From Physcomitrium patens (Eukaryota; Streptophyta; Bryopsida; Funariales; Funariaceae), in the NCBI RefSeq assembly GCF_000002425.4, contig NC_037258.1, forward strand, positions 5,636,052-5,700,051: 64,000 bases of DNA, written 5' to 3'. This document shows positions 29,613-62,590 of this stretch, one piece after another. The position numbers were made by a program, and so were the translations under genes. Position 1 is the stretch's first letter; every line of letters starts with the position of its first letter. Below the pieces are notes generated by a model. That model saw only the letters and a program-made list of their open reading frames with translations, was not told the origin of the DNA and ran no database searches.

Positions 29613-30058
29613 TGTCACGGACACAAAAATTATCACGGACACAGAAATACAATCTCGAGATCTAACAAGAAGTTCAAGAAGAACTGATAAGAACTAGATT
29701 AATCAGATGAATACAAGAAAAACACTAGAGAGGTGAGCTAGAGCTCCAAGAGATGTGTTGTCAAGACTGAAGAACTCTTCAACCTCGATTCCAATATATA
29801 CTCCTATTTAAGAAACTTCTCAAGTAACTTCCACCAACTAGGAAGCTTCTAGAAGGTTCCAGAGACTTGCTTCTAGAAGGTTTTAGAAACTTATCTCTAG
29901 AAGGTTCTAAGGACTATGTCCCTAACATCTTCTATCAACTAAGAAGCTTCTCAAGCAACTTCCATCAGCTAGGAAGCTTCTAGAAGGTTCGAGAAACTTG
30001 CACCTAGAAGGTTTTAGAAACTTGTCTCTAAAAGGTTCTAATGACTATGTCCCTAACA
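29613..30058 (-). repeat. Gypsy-1 3' LTR
   Basis: 446 bp, TG...CA ends read as TGTCACGG...CCTAACA on the plus strand. Contains heat-shock-type TTC/GAA arrays, for example four alternating units at 29842-29859. Confidence 0.85.
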
Positions 30059-30135
30059 TCACCCCCTCTTTTAGCATCGAGGTCTCTGAGAAGCAATGTT
30101 ATTGTTAATCAGTACCAATGCAAGAAAATGAAGAT

Positions 30136-30480
30136 CTATCGCATAACGTCTGCTATGAATTCTAACTGTTGTTCACGTGGTAAGTGGTTCATTGATCCTT
30201 GAAGCCAACGGTAGTGGCCCACGCCTTCAACTTCTGACCAAGCATGAACTTCCGTATCCTCATTGTGAAATTGTCCTACAAACACGCCTTCTGGCTGATC
30301 ATCGTAAGCAGGCTCGAACTCAAATACAATCACCAGTGATTGGTTACTCGGTATCCTCCGTCGTCGTCGTGGTGTAGGCAGTTCTTCATCTCAGGGTCGC
30401 CTTCGTGAGCTAGTCGATTGAGATAATCTGATTGGCATAGTATCTATCTCTTGGCTATCCATATCAGAAGACCGAACTAT
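30136..30480 (-). other. Gypsy-1 copy of the extra 3' frame (ORF3)
   Basis: Lies between the integrase/chromodomain region and the 3' LTR. It carries the core EVEGVGHYRWLQ and NHLPREQQLEFI found in the Gypsy-2 copy at 37175-37516. Fossil copy; function unknown. Confidence 0.6.
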
Positions 30481-32024
30481 GGCTACTAAAAAAAATTCTA
30501 CTTTATCTTGGAGAAAATAATTACATCAACTATGAATTTTGGTGGTGCTCTCCCCCTTTCTTATATTCTTAGGTGATCAAGCTTCAGAAGGAAGCTATCG
30601 TCGAACCGGCTTAGGTTTATGAGGATATTGTTGATGAAACTCCTATACTTTTTGCGATGTATTGGCAAGATTTTCAGCTAGTTCCTACGTTCGCTCATTA
30701 ATGTTGTATCCACACCAATGAACAAGATACTCCAACTTGTCCTACCTTTGCCATGAATCCAGCACCTTTTCAACCTCGTATTCATCATGGTTCTCGATCT
30801 CAATACTAGGTGGCAAACATTGCACTCTTCCAAGAAAAGATGACTCTCGATAAGGCTCCAACAGAGAAACATAAAAGACTGGATATACCTTCAAAGGAGC
30901 CGGTAATTCCAGACGGTACGCCACTAGATTGATTTGCTTCTGGATGATAAATGATCCCAATCTTCGATAGTCCAATTTATCACATGGTCGCTTGGTCTTG
31001 ATATTCCGTTGAAGAGGCCATGCTTTATCTCCAATTTTGAAAGTAAGTGCTTGATTCCAAAATCTATCTGCAAACGCCTTGTAGGATTCTTGAAAGGATT
31101 GTAATTGAAGCTTCAACGTAGTTTGAAGCTCTGATAGTTGCTTTGCAAATCCTTCAGCTGCTGGATTGTTATTTGTTGACGGACTCAATAAATCAAGCTT
31201 TGGATGATACCTATAGTTGGAAAAGAATGGAGTGTATTGAGTCAACGCATGGAGGGTGTTGTTATATGCAAACTTGGCTAGCGATAGATATGCGGTCCAA
31301 TCGTCTTGTTGATAGTTGATGCTACATCGTAAGTATTGTTCCAAGACTTGGTTCACCCGTTCCGTTTGGGCGTCAGTTTGAGGATGAAAAGCCGAAGAAA
31401 GCTTGATATCCACCTTCAGTATCTCAAAGAGAGATCTCCAAAACTTTGATACGAATTGGGTTCTTCGATCTAATACAATATCATCTGGTAGTCCATGATA
31501 TCGATATACATTATCGAGAAAAAGCCTTGCTGTGACTTCACTGGACGATGTCTTCTTGCAAGAGACAAAGTGCGTCATCTTTGTAAGCTAATCTACCATG
31601 ACAAAGATGTTGTCAAATGAGTTCGATGATGGCAGGACTGTGATGAAGTCCATAGAAACTGAAGACCATGGTTGATGTGGAATCGACAATGGCTGTAGAA
31701 GTCCATAAGGGCGATACCGAGGATTCTTAGATCTTGAACAAATGTCGTAGGAGAGGACAAAATCTCACATCCTTCCACATTTGGAACCACGAGAAATCTT
31801 GAGAAATAAGCTCCAAGGTCTTGTTGAATCCAAAATATCCCGCAATTGAAAAATCGTGGCGAGATTGAAGAACTCGGAGTCGTGTTGGTCCTTTTGGAAT
31901 ATATAACCACTCCTCAAAGTATAAAAGATCTCCCTCCACCTTGAACTTGTCATCATTGGTACGCTACTTGATATCAATGGCTACTGAATCTTCAATGGTC
32001 ACGTCATGTACCTGATTCAGGAAG

Positions 32025-32485
32025 TGTTAGGGACATAGTCCTTAGACCTTTCTAGAGACAAGTTTCTAGAACCTTCTAGAAAGAAGTCTCTAGAAACTTC
32101 CAGAAGATTCTTTGAATATTCTCTTAGAATATTCTTTAAAGATTCCCTAAAGATTCTTTGAAGATTCCCTTAGAAGGCTCTAGAAGATTCTTAGAATATT
32201 CTAGTAGATTCTAAGAAGTTACTTGAGAAGCTTCCTAGCTCTTGGGTAGTTGCTCGAGAAGCTTCATAGTTCTTGGGAAGCTTCTTGATGCGCTTCCTTA
32301 GAACCATAGGCCAGTAGTATATATAGGAGTCGAGGTTGAAGAGTTCTTCAGTCTCGACAACACATCTCTTGGAGTTCTAGCTCACCTTTCTGGTGTTGTT
32401 CTTGTACTCAACTGTTTAATCTAGTTCTGCCACTTCTTCTTGAACTTCTTATTAGATTTCAAGTCTGTATTTTGTGTCCGTGACA
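32025..32485 (+). repeat. Gypsy-2 5' LTR
   Basis: 461 bp, begins TGTTAGGGACATAG and ends GTCCGTGACA. U3 holds the heat-shock-type arrays and a TATATATA box (separate entry). Confidence 0.92.
32064..32330 (+). promoter_or_regulatory. Heat-shock-element arrays and TATA box in the Gypsy-2 U3
   Basis: Perfect alternating TTC/GAA units with 2-base spacing, the binding pattern of plant heat-shock factors, occur at 32064-32081 (four units) and 32093-32110 (four units). GAATATTC pairs follow at 32114-32121 and 32127-32134, with further GAAGCTTC pairs to about 32290. A TATATATA box lies at 32318-32325. The same order recurs in the 3' LTR. The motif is seen; heat response is inferred from the HSE consensus and from the known case of Copia ONSEN in Arabidopsis. 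Confidence 0.7.
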
Positions 32486-35400
32486 GTTTGTCGAGACTAC
32501 ACTAACTTGAGATATCAGAGCTAGTTCTTTCTTAGTAGAGTGTGGATTACCCCTCTATTTGAAGGTATACTAGCATTTTTTAGAGGTTGCGGATTACTCT
32601 CCTCTAAAACTAAAATCGTTTAGTGTTTTTTTTTTTTCTTTTCTCCGAGTAGGTTTTAGTGATAGGTAGTGCTACAATTTTTTCCAAGAGACTTAGCAAT
32701 TTTTTCTTCTCTCAAAATTTTAATCCATCTATTTTCTAAATATAGAAGTAGACCAGGTCATAGACAATGCATCTCCACAAGTAGACAGTAGAGTAGCAAC
32801 TCTTGCAGATCTTCAAGCTCTTATGAATAGTGTACGAAAGGAGATTGCATTTCTTCGCAATCCAAGTAAAGAACCTCAAATTGATCTAGTGACCGAAGAA
32901 GTTAGACGCGAAATTCATAGCCTACAATAAGAGATTATTCGACTGAGAGAAGCAAGACATGTGTCACATACGACCCCTATAGATACTTCAAGGATTAGTA
33001 CGAAAGAACCAAAAGCGAGTATGCCAGACAAGTTTGACGGAACAAGAGCCAACTTCCGAGGTTTTGTGCAACAAGTACGGCTTTACCTACGCCTATACCC
33101 TTCTCGTTATCCGAATGGATTTACCCAGGTTGCTTTCATAGGTACTCTTCTATCAGGAAATGCTCGCTCTTGGTTTGCTCCACTATTGGAGAAGGATTCT
33201 CCAATATTGTACGACCTAGAGGCTTTCATAGAGAGACTTACTGCTGCGTTTGGAAATAGCGATCGAGAAAGAGTGGCTGAAAGAAAGATACAAAATCTGC
33301 GACAAGGATCACGTTCTGCTGCAATCTATGCTGCAGAATTTCAACAGCTTACATGTGATCTTGATTGGAATGATAAGGCGTTCATGACACGATTTCGATA
33401 TGGACTGAGAGATGATGTCAAGAACTTATTGATCACCATGCCTAAGGCGGATACTTTAGAAGAACTTATATCTCAGGCAATTATTTGTGACAACCGCCTC
33501 TTTGAATTACTACAAGAAAGACGATCAGGCTGGAGAAATGATGGAGCATTTGCTACATTTTCAAAAGGTCCAGAGAATCACTCCACAGATCCTGAATCCA
33601 TGCAAATTGATGCGGTACGTTTCAAACCCCTCACAGCTGAGGAAAGGAAGCAACGGTTTGAACAAAACTTGTGTTTATATTGCGGAGAAGCAGGCCATAA
33701 AGCTGTAGATTGTCGGAAGAAACAGAAGCCTCAAACAACAAGACTCAGGAGTACAAGCATGTAGGAAAACAAGGACGCCCAGCCACAATAGGGACCGTGC
33801 GGCTGGACATCTCAACATCCAAAATTAATCAAGGTCCCTTTCTCTCAGCTCAACCTTCAGATTGTTTTATGGTACCTTTACATCAGGGTATTCAAGAACT
33901 ACAAGTCGATGCTTTATTAGACTCGGATGCATCCGCTTGCTTTATAGATGAAGAGTTTACCAAGCTTCACAATATTTCTCTTCTAAAGAAACTTAAGCCT
34001 GTCCATGTAGAAGTCATAGACGGACGACCATTGTCTTCGGGCAATGTTATCCATGAAACTAAACCATTGAAGGTACGTCTTGAAAACCATGAGAGCAATA
34101 TTATGTTTAATGTTATCAAGACCTCTTCATGTCCTATCATTTTGGGACTATCTTGGCTTGATAGATATAATCCATTGATAGATTGGAAGTTGCGGAAAGT
34201 GACATTTCCAACAAATTCCTTGAAGGTGGAATCTGCCAAGACAATGTCTAGAAACAAATCCTTGTTTATAGGTGCAAGGGCTTTCATGAAGGAAGCCAAG
34301 CAAAATACACCTCTTGTCATCTTCGCAACTCTGACTCGAGAAGATGCAACTCCGACTTTGGTTATTCCAAAGCAGTATGAAGAATTCAAAGATGTCTTTG
34401 AAAAGAAGAATGCTGATATGCTGCCAGAGCATCGACCCTATGACTGTGCCATTGAATTGCAAGAAAGAGCACAACCACCTTTTGGACCAATCTACAATTT
34501 GTCGCAGACGGAGTTGACTGAGTTGCGGAAGTACATTGACGAGAATCTAGCCAAGAACTTCATCCGTCATTCGAAGTCGCCAACTGGGGCACCAATCTTA
34601 TTTGTGAAGAAGAAGGATGGCTCACTACGGATGTGCGTGGACTATCGAGGTCTCAACAAGGTGACAAAAAAGAATGACTACCCATTGCCTTTGATCTCTG
34701 GTCTTCTAGAACAACTTGGGCGTGCAAGGATCTTTACAAAGATTGACCTAAGGGGAGCTTACAACCTTGTGCAAATTAAGAAAGGAGATGAATGGAAGAC
34801 AGCGTTCCGAACAAGGTATGGCCATTTTGAATACAATGTCATGCCATTTGGTCTTACTAATGCTCCAGCGGTCTTTCAACACATGATGAATGACATCTTT
34901 CGAGAGCATCTAGACGATTTTGTTGTCATCTATCTAGATGATATTTTGATATTTTCTAAGAACGAGGAAGAACATGAGAAGCACGTTAGTCTGGTACTCA
35001 AAAAACTACGGGAGCGAGGACTCTATGCCAAATTGGAGAAGTGCTTATTTCACCAAACTGAGATGGAGTTTTTGGGATTCATCGCGACTACGGAAGGCTT
35101 GAAGATGGATCCAAAGAAGGTGGAAGCAATCATGTCTTGGGAAGTTCCGAAGACGGTTAGGGACGTACAATGTTTTCTTGGATTTGCTAACTACTATCGG
35201 ATCTTCATCAAGAATTATTCTCAAGTTGCTGCCCCCTCACTCGGTTAACGAGTAAGGACAAGCTCGAATGGAGACCTATCGCAGAAAAAGTATTTCAAGA
35301 TTTGAAGATGGTATTTACTACAGCTCCAATCTTGGTACATCCGGACTTTACAAAGGCCTTTTATTTGGAGACAGATGCATCGGATTTTGCTTTGGGAGCT

Positions 35401-37174
35401 GTACTTTCACAGATGGGTGTAGATGAGAAGCTCCATCCAGTTCCGTTCTATTCTCGAAAATTCTCTGCTGCTGAGATCAACTATGAGATCTACGATAAGG
35501 AACTCCTTGCTATAGTAGATTCTTTCCAAGAGTGGCGCCACTTTCTCGAAGGAACTGTACATCCAGTGACCGTATATACGGATCACAAGAATTTGGAGTA
35601 TTTTATGTCGGCTCGGGTTTTGAATCGGCGTCAAGCCCGGTGGAGTATGTCGCTATCCAGGTTCGACTTTGTTATTACTTATCGGCCTGGGAAGCAACAA
35701 GGGTTGTCAGATGCATTATCAAGGAGATCATATCTCGCGCCAAAGGCTGGAGATGCAGCATTTGATCAACAGTGCACGACATTGTTGAAGCCAGAGAAAT
35801 TTCGGCTCAACGTAGCTATTGTACCAATTGATGCTGACTTCCTCGACCAGGATGTGAAAGATTTTGTTGTATCTTGTGACATTTGTTCAAGATCCAAAAA
35901 CCCTCGACATCGGCCTTATGGACTTGTACAGCCATTGCCTATTCCGTGCCGACCATGGTCTTCGGTTTCCATAGACTTTATTACGGATCTACCACCATCG
36001 AATTCATTTGACAGCATTTTTGTTGTCGTAGACCGGCTCACAAAGATGGCGCATTTTGTCCCTTGCAAGAAGACATCGTCAAGCGAAGACACAGCAAGAT
36101 TCTTTCTTGATAATGTGTATCGATATCATGGTCTACCAGATGATATCGTATCGGATCGAGGAACCCAATTTGTATCAAAGTTTTGGAAATCTCTTTTTGA
36201 AATATTGAAGGTGGATATCAAGCTTTCTTTGACATTTCATCCTCAAACGGACGGCCAAACAGAACGGGTGAATCAAGTTTTAAAGTAATATTTATGTTGC
36301 ACCATCAACTATCAACAAGATGATTGGGTTGCATATCTACCGCTAGCAGAGTTCGCATATAACAACACCCTTCATGCGTCAACTCAACAAACGCCATTCT
36401 TTTCCAATTATGGATACCATCCGAAGCTTGACTTATGGAGTTCATCAACGATTAACAATCCGGCAGCTGAAGGATTGGTGAAGGAGCTTTCGCAGCTTCA
36501 AACTACATTGAAGCTTCAATTGCAAACTGCCCAAGAATCTTACAAGGCTTCCGTGGACAAATTTCGGAATCAGGCACCTAAATTCACGATTGGAAACAAA
36601 GTTTGGCTGCTTCGACGAAATATTAAGACTAAGCGGCCATGTGACAAATTGGACTATCGGAGATTGGGACCATTTATTATCCAGAAGCAGATCAATCCTG
36701 TAGCGTATCGTCTGGAGTTACCAGCTACTATGAAGGTACATCCTGTCTTTCATGTTTCTTTGTTGGAGTCTTATCGAGAATCGTCTTTTTCTGGAAGAGT
36801 ACAATGTCCACCACCTAGTATAGAAATAGAGAACCACGAAGAATACGAGGTGGAAAAGGTCCTGGATTCACGGCAAAGACGAGGTAAATTAGAATACTTT
36901 GTGCATTGGAGCGGTTACGATATTAATGAACGAACATGGGAGCCGGCCAAAAATCTCGCGAATGCGCCACAAAAGGTACAGGAGTTTCATCGACGATATC
37001 CTGAGAAATCCAAGCCGGTTCGACGATAGCTTCTTACTGAAGCTTGCTCATCCAGAAAACAGAAAAGAGGAGAGAGCACCACCAAAATCCATAGTTGATG
37101 TAGTCATTCTTTCCAAGATAGCGTAGAGCTTTGTTAGTAGCCCAAGTTTGTTCTTATTGTTTTAGCCTTTGAAT

Positions 37175-37516
37175 ATGGATAGCCAAGATACTACACTTGT
37201 CATGTCATCTCAAGCAACTAGCTCACGAAGACGATCGCGAGATGAAGAACCGCCTGCACCACGACAACGTCGAAGGATTCCGAGCAACAGATCGCTGGTG
37301 ATTGTATTTGAGGTCGAGCCTGCCTACAATGGTCAGCCAGAAGGAGTGTTTGCAGGACAATTTCACAATGAAGACACGGAGGTTCATGCTTGGTCAGAAG
37401 TTGAAGGCGTGGGCCACTACCGTTGGCTTCAAAGACCATTGAATCACTTGCCTCGTGAACAACAATTGGAGTTCATTGCAGAGGTTATGCGACAGATCTT
37501 CATTTTCTTGCGTTGA
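37175..37516 (+). other. Gypsy-2 copy of the extra 3' frame (ORF3), 113 aa
   Basis: Separate open frame beginning with ATG about 145 bases after the pol frame and ending 56 bases before the 3' LTR. The N-terminal half is Arg/Ser-rich (SSRRRSRDEEPPAPRQRRR), the C-terminal half compact with EVEGVGHYRWLQ and NHLPREQQLEFIAEVMRQIF. Related frames sit at the same place in Gypsy-1, -3 and -4. I recognise no family. The basic stretch could bind nucleic acid or act as a nuclear signal (inference). Confidence 0.65.
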
Positions 37517-37572
37517 TATTGACTGACGATAACATTGCTTCTCGGAGACCTCGAAGCTAAAGGAGGAGGTGA

Positions 37573-38045
37573 TGTTAGGGACATAGTCCTTAGACCTTTC
37601 TAGAGACAAGTTTCTAGAACCTTCTAGAAAGAAGTCTCTAGAAACTTCCAGAAGATTCTTTGAATATTTTCTTAGAATATTCTTCAAAGATTCTCTAAAG
37701 ATTCTTTAAAGATTCCCTAAAGATTCCCTTAGGAAGACTCTAGAAGATTCTTAGAATATTTTAGTAGATTCTAAGAAGTTACTTGAGAAGCTTCCTAGCT
37801 CTTGGGTAGTTGCTCGAGAAGCTTCATAGTTCTTGGGAAGCTTCTTGATGCGCTTCCTTAGAACCATAGGCCAGTAGTATATATAAGAGTCGAGGCTGAA
37901 GAGTTCTTCAGTCTCGACAATACATCTCTTGGAGTTCTAGCTCACATTTCTGGTGTTGTTCTTGTACTCATTTGTTTAATCTAGTTCTGCCACTTCTTCT
38001 TGAACTTCTTATTAGATTTCAAGTCTGTATTTTGTGTCCGTGACA
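37573..38045 (+). repeat. Gypsy-2 3' LTR
   Basis: 473 bp, preceded by a polypurine tract (AAAGGAGGAGGTGA). Near-identical to 32025-32485. Confidence 0.92.
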
Positions 38046-41000
38046 GGAAGTCAGCATCAATTGGCACAATAGTACCACAGAGCCGAAATTGCTCTGGCTT
38101 CAACAACGTCGTACATTGTTGATCAAACGCTGCTTCTCCAGCCTTTGGTACAAGATACAATCTCCTCAATAAGACATCGGATAGTCTTTGCTGCTTTCCA
38201 GGTCGATAAGTAATAATAAAATCGAATCTAGATAGCGACATATTCCACCGAGCTTGGCGTCGATTTAGAACTCGAGCTAACATGAAATAATTCAAATTCT
38301 TGTGATCTGTATATACGATCACTGGGTATGTAGCTCCTTCAAGAAAGTGACGCCATTCTTGGAAAGAATCCACTATAGCAAGAAGTTCCTTATCGTGGAT
38401 CTCATAATTGATTTCAACAACAGAGAACTTTTGAAAATAGAATGCAACCGGATGGAGCTTCTTGTCTTCTCCTATTTGTGAAAGTACAGCTCCCAAAGCA
38501 AAATTTGAAGCATCAGTTTCTAAACAGAAGGCCTTTGTAAAGTCTGAATGTACCAAGATTGGAGCCGTAGTAAATGCTATCTTCAAGTCTTGAAATGCCT
38601 TCTCCGCTAGAGGTCTCCATTCCAGCTTATCCTTGTATGTCAACCAAGTGAGAGGAGCAGCAACTTGAGAGTAATTTTTGATGAAGATCAGATAGAAGTT
38701 AGTAAAACCAAGAAAGCATTGTACGTCTCTAACCATCTTCGGAACTTCCTAGGACACGATTGCTTCCACCTTCTTGGGGTCCATCTTCAAGCCTTCCATA
38801 GTCACAACGAATCCCAAAAACTCCATCTCCATTTGGTGAAATAAACACTTCTCCAACTTAGCATATAGTCCTCACTCGCATAGTTTCTCCAAGACCAAAC
38901 AAACGTGTTTTCATACTCTTCCTCGTTTTTGGAAAATATCAAAATATCATCCAAGTAGATGACCACAAAATCGTCAAGGTGCTCCCAAAAAATGTCATTC
39001 ATCATGTGTTGGAAGACCGCTGGAGCATTGGTAAGACCAAATGGCATGACATTATACTCAAAATGGCCATACCTTGTACGGAACGCTGTCTTCCACTCAT
39101 CTCCTTCCTTGATTCGTAAGAGGTTGTAAGCTCTCCTTAGATCAATTTTTGTAAAGATCCTTACATGTCCAAGTTGTTCTAAGAGACCAGAAATTAAGGA
39201 TAACGGGTAACGATTCTTCTTTGTTATCTTGTTGAGGCCTCGATAGTCCACACACATCTGCAACAAGCCATCTTTCTTCTTCACAAATAAGATGGGTGCC
39301 CCAATTGATGATTTTGAATGACGGATGAAGTTCTTGGCTAGATTCTCGTCGATGTACTTCCACAACTCCACCAACTCTATCTGCGATAGATTGTAGATTG
39401 GACCAAAAGGCGGTTGTGCTCCTTCCTGCAAGTCTATGGCGCAATCATATGGTCAGTATTCCGGTAGCATGTCGGCATTCTTCTTTTGAAACACATCTTT
39501 AAAATCCTTATATTACTCTAGTATACTTGCTGTCGAGATCTTCTTTCCAGTAGTTAGAGCCGCATAAATGACAAACGGTGTGCCTTCCTTGGATGATCTT
39601 ACAAACGCTCTTGCTCCAATGAATAAGGATTTCTCTATTCGGGATTTTCTACTAAGCTTGCTCTTGGATGGTTTTGTGGAAAAGGTCATCTTTTGCAACC
39701 TCCAATCTATGGATGGGTTGTACTTTTCTAACCAGGAAAGACCAAGAATAATAGGATTTGATGGGATTCTAATAATATTGACTACTATGGCCCTTAAACG
39801 TCACTTCTATAGGTTCTGATTCATAGGTGACACTACCAGACAATAAAGGTTGTCCATCTATGACCTCAATGTGAACAGGTTTGGATTTTTGTACTGAAAA
39901 GATCTTATGACGCTTTGCAAATTCTTTGTCTAAGAAACAAGTAGATGCTCTTGAATCTAATAATGCTAAGGTTCTCAGTTTTTGAGGGCCAATAAACAAA
40001 AGGATTGTAAAACAAAGGGCAGGTTGAGTGGAAAGAATGGAACCTGGTTGTTGTTGCAATATTTCACTGTCCAGCCGCATGGTTCCTATTGTGGCTGGGC
40101 ATCCTCGTTTTTCTGAACAAACGCGCTCCTTGTCCTGACAATACGTCGATTTTGCTTCTTGGGACAGTTTCCAACTTTGCAGCCTTCTTCACCATAATAT
40201 AAGCATAGACCTGCTTCCATACGCTGCTTTTTTTCTTCTAGAGTAAGAAATTTCACACGTACCGCATCAATTTACATGTCTTCTACCTCTGAATGTGAAT
40301 TCACGCTGTTTGCCGACATAGTTGGGGCGTGGCAAATCGTATGTTGTCTTGAGCGTTGATCTTAGCGACATTGAAATAGGTAGTTATCGCACTTCACAGC
40401 TTGGTTAATAGCTTCGTTGAGCGTTCGCGGATCAGAAAGAGTTAACAACAAATCCTTCACATCATCCCTTAAACCCCAATAGAATTGACTCATCAATGCT
40501 TCTTCGTTCCAATTGATGTCGCATACTAATTGCCTGAAATTCAATGCATAGATTGATGTAGAGCACATCTCTTGTCGTAGTGACCGGATCTTTGTTGTAG
40601 CCCATCGAACCTTGTCGTGTTCACCAAATGCTTCCACAAATGCCTCCAAAAAGATTTCAAAGTTGTTTAGTATGGACGATCGTTTCTTAAACAAAGGAAC
40701 AAACCATGATAGAGCTTTCCATGTAAGTAAGGTTCCAACAAGCCCAATACGTGACACCTCCATTGGATAGCGTTTGGACTGTAAAACTATTATCAACCTG
40801 ATTTGATTAGCGAATCCTTGAAACTTGGAACGCGTACCATCGAACTTGTCCGAAAGGCTAACTCGGGACTCCTTATGTTATAGAACCAGTGGTGCTTGTC
40901 GAACTTGAGGCAAAGTTGCTTCATCAAGTGCAGAAATTTGAGGTTGGTACAACCTAGATTGTGCCATCCTAGATGCTCCATCATTATGAAGCCTTGCCAC

Positions 41001-41390
41001 GACTCCTTCAATCTCTGCAGTTCTTTGCGATAACGTAGTGAGGGCATTTATGATAGCGTCCAACTTGGACTCTGAACTTTCAGTCATACTAATGTCTTCG
41101 CCTCCAGCCATTCTAAAAAAAGGATAGAAATGACTCTACAAGAAGATAATATTGGTTTAGAAGAGGATACTCTACAACCTCTAAAATGCCTTAAGAGCTT
41201 CAAGAAAAGAGTAATCCACTCTCTCCAAGAAGAATAAGACATCAATATTGTAACAAAAGAAGTATCAGTTTAGAGGAGGATAATTTGCAACCTCTAAAAT
41301 GCTAGTACACCTTTAAGCAGAGGAATAATCCACACTCTAACAAGAAAGAAACTAACTCTGATATCTGAGGTGAGTTCAGTCTTGACAAAC

Positions 41391-41890
41391 TGTTACGGAC
41401 ACAGAAATTATCACGGACACAGAAATACAATCTCGAGATCTAACAAGAAGTTCAAGAAGAACTAGCAAGAACTAGATTAATCAAATGAATACAAGAACAA
41501 CACCAGAGAGATGAACTAGAGCTCCAAGAGATGTATTGTCGAGACTGAAGAACTCTCCAGCCTCAATTCTAATATATACTCTTATTTAAGAAACTTCTCA
41601 AGTAACTTCCACCAACTAGGAAGCTTCTAGAAGGTTCGAGAGACTTGCTTCTAAAAGGTTCTAGAAACTTGTCTCTACAAGGTTCTAGAAACTTGTCTCT
41701 ACAAGGTTCTAAGGACTATGTCCCTAACATCTTCTACTAACTAGGAAGCTTCTCAAGCAACTTCCATCAACTAGGAAGCTTCTCAAGCAACTTCCATCAA
41801 CTAGGAAGCTTCTAGAAGGTTGGAGAGACTTGCTTCTAGAAGGTTCTAGAAACTTGTCTCTAGATGGTTCTAAGGACTATGTCCCTAATA
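41391..41890 (-). repeat. Gypsy-1 5' LTR
   Basis: 500 bp; longer than its partner, mainly by internal duplication of the TTCTAGAAGG-rich part. Four-unit TTC/GAA array at 41834-41851, three-unit array at 41805-41817. Confidence 0.85.
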
Positions 41891-47481: not shown

Positions 47482-47489
47482 TGTCACGG

Positions 47490-48937
47490 TGTCGTGTTGT
47501 AACACGAGTACACAGTGAAAATAAAAAGAAAGGGGAATTTTATTAATGATTAGTTACCTCGAATATTGGGAGCAACGACCAACTCCAGTGCAAATACTGA
47601 GTGGCTAGGTTCGGTCACCCCGTTACAGTCAGCCGGGGCATACTGAAATGCTCCGTTCGATTCCAATAACGGGAGTCAGTAGGAAGGAAAAGGACCAATT
47701 CACGCGACGGGTGAGCCTGGTTTGAAGAGCCAATTGGATCTAATTTCGAGAATCCAATCCGGGTCCTCTTACCTAATATGAGACCTGAATTGGTTGAGCG
47801 ACCCAATGCAGTCTCATTTCGAGAATCCAATCTGGGTCCTCTTACCCAATATGAGACCTGTATTGGTCGGGCAATCCAATGCAGAGTAATTACGGGAACA
47901 TCCAGGTTACTACGGGCATCTTACCCAATATGAGACCTGCATTGGTCGGGCAACCCAATGCAGTCTGATTACAGGAAAATCCGGGTCTTATTACTAGACT
48001 CTTATCCAATATGAGACCTGAATTGGTCGGGCGACTCAATGTGGTCCCGATTACGGGGTTCGATTCTGTTTCAGGCTGTCCTATTCTCTGTTTTAGGGAA
48101 CGTTGTTTTCGGTAAATGGATCTCTTAAAGGTAAAAACGGAGGAGAAAGCTTTGATGGCGAGAGCCAATTTTGGATCTAAGCTCCGACGGCGGGAGCCAA
48201 TTCCGGATCCAAGACGGAAGATTAAAGAAATTCAGATGATAAGGTTAGGGGGGGAATAAGTTTTTAGGAGGTTTTTTTTTTCAGATCAAAGAGGAGGAGG
48301 GGGGGGGGTTTTTTAGATCAAGGAGCAAGCTTCAAGTTTTTTTTGAAGGTTACTAGTTCGATTTTCATTGGAGGTTTTTGAAGATCAAGGGGATTGGAGA
48401 GGAGCTTCATGCTTTGGGTCAGGGAAGAAAAGACGGAGAATTGGATTTTTCTTCTTCATAGAGTTTTGGGAAGACTGAGGCAATCGTTGCTGAAGTCAGT
48501 GTTGTAATGGTGAATCGGGATTTTTAATGAAGTGGGTGTGATCACTCCTGATTGTTTTCTGAAATCGAGTTACGTCTGTGATTGAAGGATTAAAAGGGTG
48601 TCCATAGGATTGAGTATGTGGAGTGAATGAAATTTATTGGGTTAATCTAACAAGACAGTCAATGGATACAAGATTGTAAGTACAAAGTGGTATCGGAGAT
48701 TAGTAGATTGGGTTGTTCGGGGTTCTCTGTAACGTCTAGAGACCTATCGGTTGGGGTAAAAGGGACTTCGACAAGCAGTCGAAGGGCATCCGTATAGATT
48801 TATGGTGTATTCTTGCAGTCGTTTATATTCCAGCAGTCAAAAACTGATAGACTGCTTGATTATTGGCGAATCTCCATACTACCTTCTACAGCCAGACGCC
48901 CGGCGCGTTCTCGAGTAGGAAAGCACGTAATACGACA
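47490..48937 (+). mobile_element. TGTCGT-family LTR-like element, young GC-rich copy
   Basis: 1448 bp from TGTCGTGTTGTAACACGAGT to GCACGTAATACGACA, flanked by identical 4-bp repeats ACGG (47486-47489 and 48938-48941). The ends form a short inverted repeat TGTCGT/ACGACA. It contains about four tandem 72-80-bp units at 47768-48055. No significant open frame. Much less AT-drifted than its host, so clearly younger. Best reading is a solo LTR of an element whose internal region is not in the window; a non-autonomous inverted-repeat element is the alternative. Confidence 0.75.
47768..48055 (+). repeat. Tandem array of ~72-80-bp units within the TGTCGT element
   Basis: Four head-to-tail units, each containing CCAATATGAGACCTG, ATTGGTCGGGC and CCAATG in the same order, read directly. 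The copy at 60595-61794 has about two such units (61390-61520) in reverse. Confidence 0.8.
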
Positions 48938-51900
48938 ACGGACATATATATTTATCAAAATTGTTACTTATATGATTAAGTAGAAGTAGGTAAATATAAA
49001 TTAATTTCATAAAGTCTTTTAGATAAGCTTTCTAGAATCTTGAAAGATGCGGTTGACTTTAAATATGTTTGTAGGTTAGAAATTTTCCAACAAATTAATC
49101 TTGTATTGGTAGCTTGTAGAATAAGTTAACTCTGTGTAGTAGCTTATAGAGCATGCTAACTATACAATGCATACATAGATAACTTATTTTATAAGTTAAG
49201 ATATATAGTTAATAAAGTCAACACATGTTTGAGGCCTTATAGAATATTCCTATACAGCTCCTAGTTAGAGAGTATATATGAAGGCAAGAGTGAAGCCTTC
49301 TTCACTCTTGTCAATACCTTTCTAGTCTTTAGTCTTGTTCTTACACTTTCTAGTCTCTTATTTTTTATAGTAGCTATTTTTAATTCAATATTATATCATC
49401 TTTAAGTGACTTTTTAGTTCCATTGAGTGATACAAGAGTGTATTGAAGATTTTCTTTTTTTGAGATTCATGTCCTTAACAATTTGACAAAAGTACTAATA
49501 TACTGTTTCTGTCTTGTTTTAGAAGTGAGTGGATTATCTCATTTCTATTTTTGTATTTTAAAGATTTCTAACTACCGATCGTTAAACAAAAAATCTTATT
49601 TTCTAACATTCATCTTTTCTTTAAAGAAAGTAAATTATCTCTCTTTGTGAATTTTTTTAATAAAGGTTGTAGATTACCTTCTTCTAATTTAATTTTTTGA
49701 ATTTATTTGAGTTGTTTAGGGATGCTATTCACACTAAAAGTGAGAATAGATTTGTAACTATTACAAATCTTTATGAACTTGTCAATATTCTAAAAATAGA
49801 AATCTCACGTATTTCCAATGTAAATCATGGAAGTACTATGCCTTTGGAAGAAGTTCAAAATCTATAATAAAAAGTTGTGCAGTTGAAGGAAGTAAATAGA
49901 TCGACATTCCAACCAAATCCAAGGAATTTTGCTTTTACAAGTATGATGGGCACAAGGATTAGTATATCTAAGAAGTTTTATGGAACAAAATCAAAATTTT
50001 GAGGATTTTTAAAATAAGTCAAGCTTTATCTAAAGTTGCAACTTTTCTAATATTTTGATGGATTTACTCAAGTTGGATTCATAGGCACACTTCTATCAAA
50101 AAGTGCTCTCTCTTGATTTGTATCTTTAATGAAAAAAGATTTGCAAGTCTTTTATGATTTGAATTCATTCTTAAAAGCGTTTACTGCCACATTCAGAGAA
50201 AGTGATTGAAAAAGAGTAGCAGAGACCAATCTCTTATCTTTATGGCAAGGATCACGATTAGCTACCATATATGCTCCTAAATTCTAAAACATTGCTTGTG
50301 ACATGGACTAGAATGACAAAGCCCTTAATAATCAATTTTGATATAGATTGAAGGATAGTGTCAAAGACTTGTTACTAACAATACCAAAGGTAGAATCTTT
50401 GAAATAATTTATTATTCAAGCCACTACATGTGACAATCAATTATTTGAAAGACATCAAGAACAAAGATATGATTGAAGAGGAACTAATCAAATAATAACG
50501 ACAACTCCTAAATTTTTAGAAACTTATTCTTCAAGGCCAAAAACTATGTAAATTAATATGGTATATTTTAAATCCTTCATACAATAGGAAAAGAGTCAAC
50601 GATGTCAAGAAGATTTATACTTATATTATAGAAAAGCTAAATATATTACTCAATATTTTTTAAAAAAACAATGCAATTATAAAATAAGAAGCACAATTGC
50701 CAAAGAAGACAATGTGTTGAAAAATAAGTTACTCTAGCTATAATAGGAACCATGCGGGTAGAATCATATATAATATCTAATAAAAGTTCTATTCTCTCCT
50801 TAGATTCTTAACCTTGTTTCATAATAGAAGTCTATTTAGGACCAAAAAATCACAAAGTCTTAACCTTGTTGGATTCAAGAGCCTCAACATGTTTTATATA
50901 TGAAGACTTTGTCAAAAAACAAGATATATTCTTAGTTAAAAAAATCAAACTTGTGCATGTAGAAATAATAGATGGATATTCATTGTCTTTTGGAGATGTT
51001 ACACATAAAATTCTTCTTGTAGAAGTAGCAACTGGTGGTCATAATAGTTTAATAATATTTAATATAATTAAATCTCTTTTTAATTCAATTATTTTAGAAT
51101 TATCATGGTTAAAAAGATATAATATTCAAATAAACTAGATTTCTTGTAATCTTGATTTTTTCCATAGTTTAGCCTAAGGTCCTACTAGGCAAGTAGAAAT
51201 CCATAAGTCTAGTACATCCAAATCTTTATTGCTAGATGCAAGAGCTTTCATGCATGTCGCAAATGAAGGGCCATCTTTCGTTATATATGCCACATCTATT
51301 GCTAATAGTTAGAAGATATCAAGTAGTATTCTTAGTTAGTATTAAGATTTCTAGTATATTTTTTAAAAAAAGAATGTAGATATTTTTTTGGAGCATCGTC
51401 CTTATGATTATTCCATTGATCTTCAAGAAAGAACTCAACCACTATTTAGACCAATCTATAGCATATCACAAAATGAGTTAGCTATATTCAAAGAATACAT
51501 TGATGAGAACTTAGCTAAAAAATTTTATATGCCATTCTAAATTTTGAGTCGGAGCTCCTATCTTATTTATGAAGAAAAAAGGTGCATCTTTGTGGATGTG
51601 TTTGGATTATCAAGGACTTAATAAGATCACCATCAAGAATAGATATCCTCCACCTTTGATTTTAAGACTTCTTGAATAACTAAATCAAGCAAAGATCTTT
51701 ACAAAAATAGATCTTCGAAGAGTATATAACTTGGTTTGCATCAAAAAAGGAGATAAATAGAAGACTGCTTTTCAAACTAGGTATCGACATTTTGAATATA
51801 ATCTCATGCCTTTTAGACTCATAAATGTACCAATTGCTTTTCAACATCTAATGAATGATGCCTTTTGTGAATTTCTTGATGATTTTGTCGTCTATTATTT

Positions 51901-55426: not shown

Positions 55427-56715
55427 CCGCAAATGTAGAAGGCTGTAAAAGACTTTATCTACTCATGTGATATTTATTTAAGATCAAAAACTCCTTTTCA
55501 TTGATCCTATGGACTTCTCCAACCATTGCCTATATATAAACAACCATGATTTTTCATTTCTATGGATTTTATTGTAAATCTTTCAAATTCAAATTTATAT
55601 GATTCTCTATTGGTAGTTATAGATGGCTTCACTAAAATGGCATATTTTGTATCATGTACAAAATCTATTTCAAGTGAAGAAACAATCAAGCTTTTCATTG
55701 ATAATATCTATTGTTATCATAGATTGCCAAAGGATATTATATTAGATAGGAGGACTTAATTTGTATCAAGATTCTAGAGAATCCTATTCAAGATTTTAAA
55801 GATAGATATAAAGCTCTCTTTGACTTTTCATTCTTAAATTAATAGATAAACGAAATAGATGAATCAAGTTTTGGAATAGTATTTGTGGTATACCATCAAT
55901 TATCATCAAGATGATTAAACAACTCTTTTGCCATTGGTAGAGTTTGCATATAATAATTTGGTACATTCTTCTACTCAACAAATACTTTTCTTTGTGAATT
56001 ATGGTTATCATCCATGACTTGATACTTTTGATTTTTTCAAAGATGATAATCTTACAACAAAAGATTTAGTAAATTATTTGTCAAAACTATATGCAACAAT
56101 GAAGACACAATTAAAAAAAGCTTTAGAATGACAAAAGACCAATACAAATACCTATCACAAGGAATAACCACAATTCAATGTGAGTGACAAGATATGATTA
56201 CTTTGTCTCAATATTAAGACTACTCGTCCTTATAATAAGTTGGATTATCGTAGGTTGAATCCTTTTCCTATTTGTAAATAAGTCAATCTTATTGCTTATC
56301 AATTACATCTACCGGAGTCTATGAAGATCCACCCTATATTTCACATGTCTCTTCTTGAACCATATAAGATAGTAAATATCTCGAGAAGAAGACAAATGCC
56401 ACCTCCTCTTATAGAAGTGAATAATAATCAAGAATTCAAGGTGGAAGAAGTTTTAAATTTAAGGCGGCACCAAAATAGATTAAAATATCTTGTTCATTTG
56501 CATGGATATGATATTATTGAATGCACATGAGAGCCAAATTTAAAAAATCTTGGAAATGCACCAAAGAGAGTTCAAGCTTTTCATCGACGACATCTATCAA
56601 AATTAAGATATAAAATAGTAAATCTTTGCTATAAAAAAAATAAGATCAAAGGAAGATAACATTCTACCTTCTATTTTTTTTTGTAGCTTTTGTATATTTG
56701 TGATGCTAAAAAGAT

Positions 56716-57136
56716 GGAGAATCAACAACCAATAGATTCAACTCAAGAGCTTTCATTTTTGGACTTACCAGATAAGATATTATGATTGTCATAACCTTTA
56801 AGATAATGAAATTGAAATGAAGATCCTCAAGAATAACATGTCCTTCTTCAAATAAATGGCGAGATACAATGTGTTTGATATCATGAACTTGGAAGAGACT
56901 CTCAATATTTGGTGATTTTATTAGAAGTAGAAACAACTCTTGACAGTGTTCTGAATATTTTATTTGAAAGAACTTATGAAGGCCTCAGCAATTATCAAAT
57001 AATAGGGTGGTCTTTTCATCCTAGTATAAGCCATTATCAATGGATGAGAGGACTTATCAACCATATTCAAAGAGAACAAAGATCAAAGTATGTGAGAAAT
57101 ATAATTTGTCGGATCTTAGATTTCTTCAATATATGA
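56716..57136 (+). other. Gypsy-3 copy of the extra 3' frame (ORF3)
   Basis: Begins with MENQQ at 56716 and keeps the core SHYQWMRGLINHIQREQRSK near its end, just upstream of the purine tract. Fossil copy. Confidence 0.55.
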
Positions 57137-60359: not shown

Positions 60360-62121
60360 TGTCAAGGACAAGAACTTGATAAAAAAAAATAAATAAGTAA
60401 AAAAAATTTCAAAGAAAGATGACAAAATAAAAATAACTCAATATGTATATTAAGAAAGAAATTGAAATGGCTATTGCCAAAAGACAAGAAAATTAATGAC
60501 CCTTGAAACTAGACTAGAAGCAAGAAAGGAGTTGACAAGAGTGAAGAGGTCTTCACTCTTATCTCTATATATACTATTTAACTAGGAGCTACGTTGTCGT
60601 ATTACGTGCTTTCCTGCTCGAGAACGTGCCGGGCGTCTGGCTGTAGAAGGTGGTATAGAGATTTACCAATATTCAAGCAGTTTATCGGTTTTTGACTGTT
60701 GGAATATAAACAACTGCAAGAATACACTATAAATCTATACGGATGCCCTTCGACTGCTTGTCGAAGTCCTTTTTGCCCCAGCCGGTAGGTCTCTAGACGT
60801 TACAGAGAACCCCAAACAATCCAAACTCCTAATCTTTAATACCGCTTTTTACTCACGATCTTGTATCCACTGACTGTCTTGTTAGATTAATCCAATAAAT
60901 TTCATTCACTCCGCATACTCAATCCTATAGACACCCTTTTAACTCTTCATTACAGACGTAACTCGATTTCACAAAACAGTCAAGAGTAATCAAACCCACT
61001 TCATTAAAAATCCCGATTCACCATTACAACACTGACTTCAGCAAGAATTGCCTCAGTCTTCCCAAAACCCTATAAAGAAAAAAAACCCAATTCTCTGTCT
61101 TTTTTTCCCGCCCGAAGCATGAAGCTAGCTCTCCGATTCTTCAAAAAACTCCCCAAAACTTATTCTCTCCCCCTTTCATTTCTTAACCTTAATTCTAAAT
61201 TTCTTCAATCTTCCGTCTTGGATCCGGAATTGGCTCCCACCGTTAGAGCTTGGATCCAAAATTGGCTCTCGCCGTCAGAGATTTCTCCTCTGTTTTTACC
61301 TTTAAGAGATCCTTTTACCAAAAACAACGTTCCTTGAAACGGCACAGAGAACAGGACAGCCTGAAACAGAATCGAAACCCCGTAATCAGGACCACATTGA
61401 GTCGCCCGACCAATTCAGGTCTCATATTAGCTAAGAGTCCAGTAGTAAGAGCCGGATGTTCCCAAAATTAGACTACATTGGATTGCCCGACCAATTCAGG
61501 TCTCATATTGGGTAAGAGGACCCGGATTGGATTCTTGAAATTGGATCCAATTGGCTCTTCGAACCAGGCTCATCCGTCGTGTGCATTGGTCCTTTCCCTT
61601 CCTATTGACTCTCGTTATTGGAATCGAACGGAGCATTTCAGTATGCCCCGGCTGACTGTAATGGGGTGACTGAACCTGGCCACTCAGTATTTGCACTGGA
61701 GTTGGTCGTTGCTCCCAATATTCGAGGTAACTGAACATTAATAAAAGTCCCCTTTCTTTATATTTTCACGGTATACTCATGTTACAACACGACAACATGG
61801 CAATGTTCTATAGGACCTCCAATATGTGTTGACTTTGTAAGACACATGCCTTGACTTATAAGGCAAGTTTTTCTACGTGTGGGCCATATAGTTAGCTTGG
61901 TTTCCAAGCTAACAACATGTGTGGGACATGGCCAACTTGTTGACCACGTTTTTAATCCAAAAAATCAATTAAAGACACCTATAAAATCAAAGAAGTGTCT
62001 TTAAAGTTTTTAGGAAGCTTTTACAGTAAATATTATAGAATCAACTTATTTTTACCTATTTTTACTTACTTCTATCTATTTATATATGTAATTATTGACT
62101 TACATGCGTATGTCCATGTCA
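60360..62121 (-). repeat. Gypsy-4 3' LTR, interrupted
   Basis: Plus-strand ends TGTCAAGGACAAG and GTCCATGTCA. About 558 bp of its own sequence once the insert at 60595-61794 and its 4-bp repeat are set aside. Similar to the Gypsy-3 LTR (shared GAGTGAAG.CTTCTTCACTCTTGTCAA hairpin-like stretch). Confidence 0.75.
60595..61794 (-). mobile_element. TGTCGT-family LTR-like element, young GC-rich copy (reverse)
   Basis: 1200 bp, reading TGTCGTATTACGTGCTTTCC at its left and GTTACAACACGACA at its right on the plus strand; it is the reverse complement of the 47490-48937 type. Flanked by near-identical 4-bp repeats (ACGT before, ACAT after). Open frames at 61119, 61250 and 61478 derive from the tandem units and are not taken as genes. 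Confidence 0.75.
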
Positions 62122-62159: not shown

Positions 62160-62590
62160 TCATTATATATTGAGAAAATCTATGATGTGACAAATTATAT
62201 TTGCTACATACTTTGATCTTTGTTCTCTTCGAAGATGATTGATAGGGCCTCTCAACCATCAATAGTGTCCTATATCAAGGTAGAAAGACCACCCAGTTAT
62301 TTGATCGTTGTTGAGGCCTTTATAACTTCCTTCAAATATAACATTTGGAACATCATCATGAGTTGTTTCTACCTCTAATAAAATCACCAAACATTGAGAG
62401 TCTCTTCCAAGGTCATGATACCAAACGTGTTGTATCTCACCATCTATTCGAAGAAGAACATGTCATTCTTGAAGATCTTCATCTCGATTGCATTGTCTTG
62501 AAGGTTGTGACAATCGTAATATCTCATCCAGCATGTCAGTAAACAAAGGCTCTTGAGTTGAATTTGCTGATTGTTGATTCTCCATGTCCT
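62160..62590 (-). other. Gypsy-4 copy of the extra 3' frame (ORF3)
   Basis: Minus strand starts with the same MENQQ beginning as in Gypsy-3 and keeps an INHLRREQRSKYV core, ending shortly before the purine tract. Fossil copy. Confidence 0.5.

Follow-up and report, generated by a model that had tools for sequence, protein, structure and literature searches.

A third open reading frame between pol and the 3' LTR, apparently maintained by selection, in two groups of chromoviruses of the moss Physcomitrium patens

An LTR retrotransposon is generally deemed to need no more than gag and pol (PMC7264820). Plant LTR elements, among them chromoviruses, are already known to carry further ORFs (PMC7264820, PMC11728184); the frame described here, hereafter ORF3, does not appear to be among them. 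The env-like third ORFs of LTR elements resemble ORF3 in their position, in lying on the sense strand and in being retained in most copies of a family, but some of them have membrane segments, whereas ORF3 has none and has no recognisable relative. The initial annotation of the locus had held that chromoviruses normally end with the chromodomain. The pol gene does so here, but the sunflower Tekay report already describes a chromovirus with an additional frame, the 5' aORF, which is conserved in 500 of 523 copies, has a nuclear signal, as ORF3 putatively does, and is likewise unlike known domains (PMC11728184). The two were contrasted by description only: the Tekay aORF lies 5' of gag-pol and encodes about 400 aa that are largely disordered (PMC11728184), while ORF3 lies 3', encodes 113-140 aa and contains a constrained core.

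Tcn1-like chromoviruses of mosses and Selaginella also carry a chromodomain, and in the Selaginella element SM1-Galahad gag-pol is followed by two short ORFs (PMC2864245, PMC3350952). In SM1-Galahad, however, it is the chromodomain that the separate ORF3 encodes, whereas the pol gene of the elements described here already ends in a chromodomain and their ORF3 is unrelated to it. In bdelloid rotifers, too, LTR elements carry a third gene, and in several cases it is not of the env type; the named examples of this latter kind are a DEDDy exonuclease and a GDSL esterase, both of which, unlike the moss ORF3, have known relatives (PMC5408684). A survey of plant LTR elements grouped extra ORFs by position and strand and included the Tcn1 clade of mosses and club-mosses; its minimum was 250 codons, so that an ORF3 of 113-140 codons would be passed over (PMC6317226). 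The open-access literature searched contained no description of ORF3 among the matches listed, and a description elsewhere is possible.

The window, that is, the whole 64,000-nucleotide stretch of P. patens DNA analysed here (C6:5636052-5700051), contains the elements Gypsy-1 to Gypsy-4 (Table 1). Gypsy-2 (32025-38045) is nested in the pol gene of the older Gypsy-1 (about 29613-41888, minus strand) and is bordered by the target duplication GGAAG. A comparison of its two LTRs over 461 positions showed 13 differences (K 0.029). The pol gene is in the -1 frame after gag and ends in a chromodomain (Pfam Chromo, E 3.6e-17). Candidate residues for the aromatic cage of group I chromodomains occur in the alignment, the first being F and not Y in the elements of group B (defined below). 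The shared sequence ATATCAGAGCT, found at 32512-32522 and at L071:939-949 of a group B element, resembles an initiator tRNA-Met primer site; in both groups it lies 22-26 nt downstream of the 5' LTR and is thus offset from it. A tandem repeat of about 130-160 bp is found at each end of Gypsy-1, and inverted repeat copies (47482-48940 and 60592-61802, 85-89% identical) adjoin Gypsy-3 and Gypsy-4.

Table 1. Coordinates of Gypsy-2 features and of the ORF3 copies in the window
Feature	Position	Strand	Basis
5' LTR of Gypsy-2; GGAAG directly upstream	32025..32485	+	
gag (capsid) of Gypsy-2; weak CCHC knuckle match, below Pfam cut-off	32931..33764	+	Pfam
pol piece: protease and reverse transcriptase	33701..35248	+	Pfam
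pol piece: RNase H and integrase core	35191..36288	+	Pfam
pol 3' part, with stop: integrase C-terminus and chromodomain (about 36838-37026)	36289..37029	+	SH3_Tf2-1, Chromo
Spacer from pol stop to ORF3 ATG, 145 nt	37030..37174	+	Sequence reading
ORF3 of Gypsy-2 (group A), 113 aa plus stop	37175..37516	+	ORF reading; selection data from relatives
Purine tract (PPT-like) upstream of 3' LTR	37559..37569	+	By eye
3' LTR of Gypsy-2; GGAAG after it	37573..38045	+	
ORF3 of Gypsy-1 (group A; A4 by eye), stop-broken	30109..30462 (about)	-	
ORF3 of Gypsy-3 (group B), stop-broken	56714..57136	+	
ORF3 of Gypsy-4 (group B), stop-broken	62163..62585	-	

The frame that the initial annotation had placed between pol and the 3' LTR of Gypsy-2 is real. 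It runs in the sense direction from an ATG at 37175 to a TGA at 37514-37516 and is read in another frame than pol (+1 relative to it), the stop codon of which is at 37027-37029. The ORF3 frame is closed three codons upstream of the ATG in Gypsy-2 and directly upstream of it in the B elements L071 and L072. In group A, stops interrupt all three frames of the spacer (one copy each of subfamilies A1-A4); in group B one spacer frame is open in some copies, and it is not the frame of ORF3. Because the A spacer is stopped in all frames and the ORF3 frame is closed just before its ATG, it is unlikely that a single frameshift fuses it to pol. At its other end, the Gypsy-2 ORF3 is two codons shorter than in 20 A copies picked by their chromodomain, all of which extend to WY.

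The spacer also contains some short start-stop arrangements. ATGTAG, a start followed by an immediate stop, occurs at 37098-37103 in Gypsy-2 and likewise in A1, A2 and A4 copies, and is absent from the spacers of the A3 copies looked at. In many B copies an ATGA at the pol stop opens a second frame across the spacer and the start of ORF3 (L071:5624-5920), the ATG being missing in some other copies. As a gene this overlapping frame was rejected: although some copies keep it open over about 79-100 codons, in several others a stop ends it after only 8 to 12. In one copy (L068), pol and ORF3 are read in a single open frame of 391 aa, apparently by way of an internal deletion.

Counterparts had also been proposed in Gypsy-1, Gypsy-3 and Gypsy-4. 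They proved real, but all three are pseudogenes, with 2, 7 and 2 in-frame stops, respectively, within the matched stretch, and because they are stop-broken the evidence for selection cannot rest on them. Further copies were taken from the P. patens genome (470 Mb, 101 contigs). Searches with the A ORF3, the Gypsy-3 stretch, the B ORF3 and the Gypsy-1 stretch each gave at least 150 matches, so that copy numbers are lower bounds. ORF3 homologues occupy the same place between pol and the 3' LTR in two chromovirus groups: group A, of the Gypsy-1/-2 type, has an ORF3 of 113-117 aa, and group B, of the Gypsy-3/-4 type, one of 140 aa. The proposal that the frame predates the split of the two groups is supported. 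The A and B proteins share 37% identity (pairwise BLASTP, E 3e-21); elsewhere identity is 46% in gag, 65% in PR-RT, 71-73% in RH-INT and 65% in INT-chromodomain. Within group A, subfamilies A1-A4 were assigned by eye.

Samples of 20 A and 20 B copies were picked by the chromodomain, and every copy had ORF3. In A the frame was open in 6 copies and broken in 14, in one case through loss of the ATG; in B it was open in 11 and broken in 9. The distance from the pol match to ORF3, with the stop codon counted, was 148 nt in every A copy and 90-98 nt in every B copy. The A sample was chosen by hand from at least 150 matches listed and comprised 13 long and 7 short pol frames; two of its members (L094 and L095) lie 6 kb apart and have common stops, and are therefore not independent. 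The B sample took about every seventh of at least 150 matches listed. Outside the moss, no ORF3 relative was found by tblastn among 56 pattern stretches from IMG/VR or among 19 from GTDB prokaryote genomes.

The suggestion that ORF3 has been kept under selection was examined through dN/dS across genomic copies, and the values between subfamilies lie far below 1 in both groups, so that the claim passes the check that the initial annotation had set for it. Among 10 A copies, found through ORF3 similarity, ORF3 dN/dS between subfamilies was 0.04-0.24 in 33 of 37 pairs; the remaining four, all A2-A4 pairs with little synonymous change (dS 0.10-0.20), gave 0.31-0.56. At the pol 3' end of the same 10 copies dN/dS was 0.09-0.18, and 0.21-0.30 in the A2-A4 pairs. 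Group B (23 copies, 20 of them picked by chromodomain) gave 0.05-0.17, with a median of 0.09, in the 120 of 253 pairs with dS > 0.2. The pairs share copies and are not independent. Between the groups, ORF3 dS is saturated, and A-B pairs are therefore unusable for ORF3 dN/dS; in 30 such pairs ORF3 dN was 0.57-0.67 as against 0.24-0.34 for pol, about double, which indicates that ORF3 evolves roughly twice as fast over long times.

Between one A1 and one A3 copy, 28 of 36 differences fell at codon position 3, an excess over chance (binomial P 6e-8). When A1 and A3 copies were compared in six frames, only the ORF3 frame was free of stops, the others having 3-8; antisense ORFs across ORF3, with 3-8 stops per frame in these copies, were accordingly discarded. 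Reading the ORF3 DNA in shifted frames gave dN/dS of at least 0.88 where defined, except for antisense frame 1 (0.12), the third positions of which coincide with those of ORF3 and which contains eight stops.

A different picture was obtained from changes carried by single copies. Singletons in the 20 chromodomain-picked A1 copies had N:S 38:12, against 127:41 for all possible C>T/G>A changes, whereas fixed differences between these copies and 3 A3 copies, the latter found by ORF3 similarity, had N:S 4:24 (Fisher 2e-7 against singletons). In the ORF3 of the A1 copies (L089-L108), 37 of 50 singletons were C>T/G>A, as expected of decay in methylated DNA. Variants shared within A1 had N:S 19:4, and 21 of 23 were C>T/G>A, a pattern that speaks for recurrent deamination or for sister copies and not for selection. 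In the 20 chromodomain-picked B copies, singletons had N:S 59:21, against 146:45 for possible C>T/G>A changes, and shared variants 18:40 (Fisher 8e-7). A first B test on old degenerate copies, chosen by ORF3 similarity and with copies duplicating another place excluded, was not significant (fixed 14.8:10.2 against singletons 172:63, Fisher 0.17); the ORF3-blind B sample was taken afterwards. From these sequence comparisons, single-copy changes appear near neutral and selection appears to act on the active lineages. We read the sum of the results to mean that inserted copies decay freely, while the protein is retained in the lines that go on transposing.

The ORF3 protein consists of a variable N-terminal tail and a core of some 75 residues under strong constraint. 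When each A subfamily was represented by one copy, dN/dS of the core (75 codons) was 0.02-0.17 in all six comparisons; that of the tail (40-42 codons in A) was 0.22-0.30 in five of six and 1.16 between A2 and A4. A 30-sequence alignment has two invariant columns, the W of WS and the Y of HY, and 14 further near-invariant ones in LVI..EV, F, WS and HY.WL....NHL..E. The synonymous divergence of A copies is uneven along the element: between A1 and A3 (among L087, L076, L079 and L073) ORF3 dS is 0.18 in the tail and 0.73 in the core, and for A1 against A2/A4 the ORF3 dS falls below that of pol. By these values the A subfamilies look mosaic, presumably by recombination.

The tail of group A is arginine-rich and shaped like a bipartite NLS, with an RRR group and an RRRRR group; 12 arginine columns are common to the four A subfamilies, and 5 of them vary in codon only. 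What is shared in group B is limited to a short SRRR.RDE piece, and the NLS-like character is weaker. The basic N-terminal half noted by the initial annotation thus holds for group A, where the net charge of the first 40 residues is +5, but not for group B, where it is -5, and a basic tail is not common to both groups. The usual hydropathy cut-off for a membrane span is about 1.6. No membrane segment was found in ORF3, the maximum over 19 residues being 0.51 in A and 1.25 in B.

The initial annotation knew of no family for the product, and none was found in the collections searched. Pfam, searched with 30 ORF3 members and E values as high as 10, gave no match; neither did NCBIfam with 3 ORF3 proteins or PADLOC with 2, and there was no relative among PDB sequences. 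PHROGs gave one match (E 0.035 across 19 residues), which was taken as chance. AlphaFold models built from 30 sequences were poor in both groups (pLDDT 51 in A, 47 in B); they concur, at low confidence, in placing strands before a C-terminal helix. Foldseek returned no fold match at E < 0.001 against PDB and viral models.

Among the alternatives considered, the one that fares best is that ORF3 is a dsRNA-binding protein that modulates silencing, a role suggested earlier for the 5' aORF of sunflower Tekay. DRBM-like features are put forward for that chromovirus aORF (PMC11728184), the beta-beta-beta-alpha order of the A model fits a dsRNA-binding domain, and dsRNA-binding structures stood at ranks 1, 8, 34 and 35 among the best 50 of 126 Foldseek rows. 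These matches, however, have E values of 2.3-6.6 and were obtained with a model whose pLDDT is 51, the A model lacks the first helix of the alpha-beta-beta-beta-alpha fold, no dsRNA-binding row appeared among 23 for the group B model, and the Pfam search of the 30 members also speaks against it. With Foldseek E > 2 on poor models, this fold was set aside as too weak, and the explanation is regarded as unlikely.

Much less probable is an env-like protein translated from a spliced subgenomic RNA, as for barley Bagy2 (PMC7264820). ORF3 does occupy the env position, the 3' end of the Gypsy-2 spacer is T-rich with TTTTAG 9 nt before the ATG, and acceptor-like sequences lie within 60 nt upstream of ORF3 in several subfamilies. 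Against this, the hydropathy maxima given above leave no membrane segment, and the Gypsy-2 acceptor ranks only 17th of 220 within the element by approximate weight matrices. With the same matrices, L071, a young B element whose LTRs are 99.5% alike, has a single candidate acceptor within 90 nt, 76 nt upstream and ranked 84th of 199, and the scan, made on sequence only, found no acceptor conserved across the scanned copies. A splice acceptor before ORF3, attractive by eye in group A, is unsupported by the ranking.

An equally slight chance is given to ORF3 being a C-terminal extension or displaced duplicate of the integrase/chromodomain, or a fragment of gag or pol. It adjoins the chromodomain, its weak model has a similar order of strands and helix, and the chromodomain structure CBX7 appeared at rank 29 (E 6.2) among the best 50 of 126 Foldseek rows. 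This derivation is nevertheless largely contradicted. An extension of integrase conflicts with the closure of the ORF3 frame before its ATG and with the stops in every frame of the A spacer (one copy each of the four subfamilies), and profile comparison gave probabilities of 0.4% against the chromodomain (hhalign), 0.1% against gag and 0.1% against pol. Finally, ORF3 lies directly before the PPT and LTR and could mainly protect a 3'-end nucleic-acid signal with the frame incidental, but this reading is already contradicted by the codon pattern, namely the 28 of 36 differences at third positions and, in each group, a low dN beside a high dS, and its probability is close to nil.

Taken together, these features suggest that ORF3 is a real, selected, intracellular accessory gene, a reading to which a probability of about 0.8 is assigned. 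The third gene of the two related chromovirus groups would encode a small soluble intracellular accessory protein that probably helps the element to multiply. Its translation may proceed by reinitiation, from an internal promoter or by splicing. The protein might act in the nucleus, on the RNA or DNA of the element or against host silencing; this role is a tentative guess, somewhat more doubtful than not.

A third gene kept by selection suggests that these elements need ORF3 to spread. RLG1, a gypsy family of Physcomitrium patens, is reported to account for 47% of the class I space of this moss and to be expressed in protonema (PMC7466625); neither A nor B is equated here with RLG1. It is conceivable, though improbable, that ORF3 founds a new family of accessory proteins that counter moss silencing or steer element RNA in the nucleus, and so helped groups A and B to fill a large share of the genome. 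The gene is readily testable in moss. As it is constrained between subfamilies like the pol 3' end, it suggests that these elements need something beyond gag and pol.
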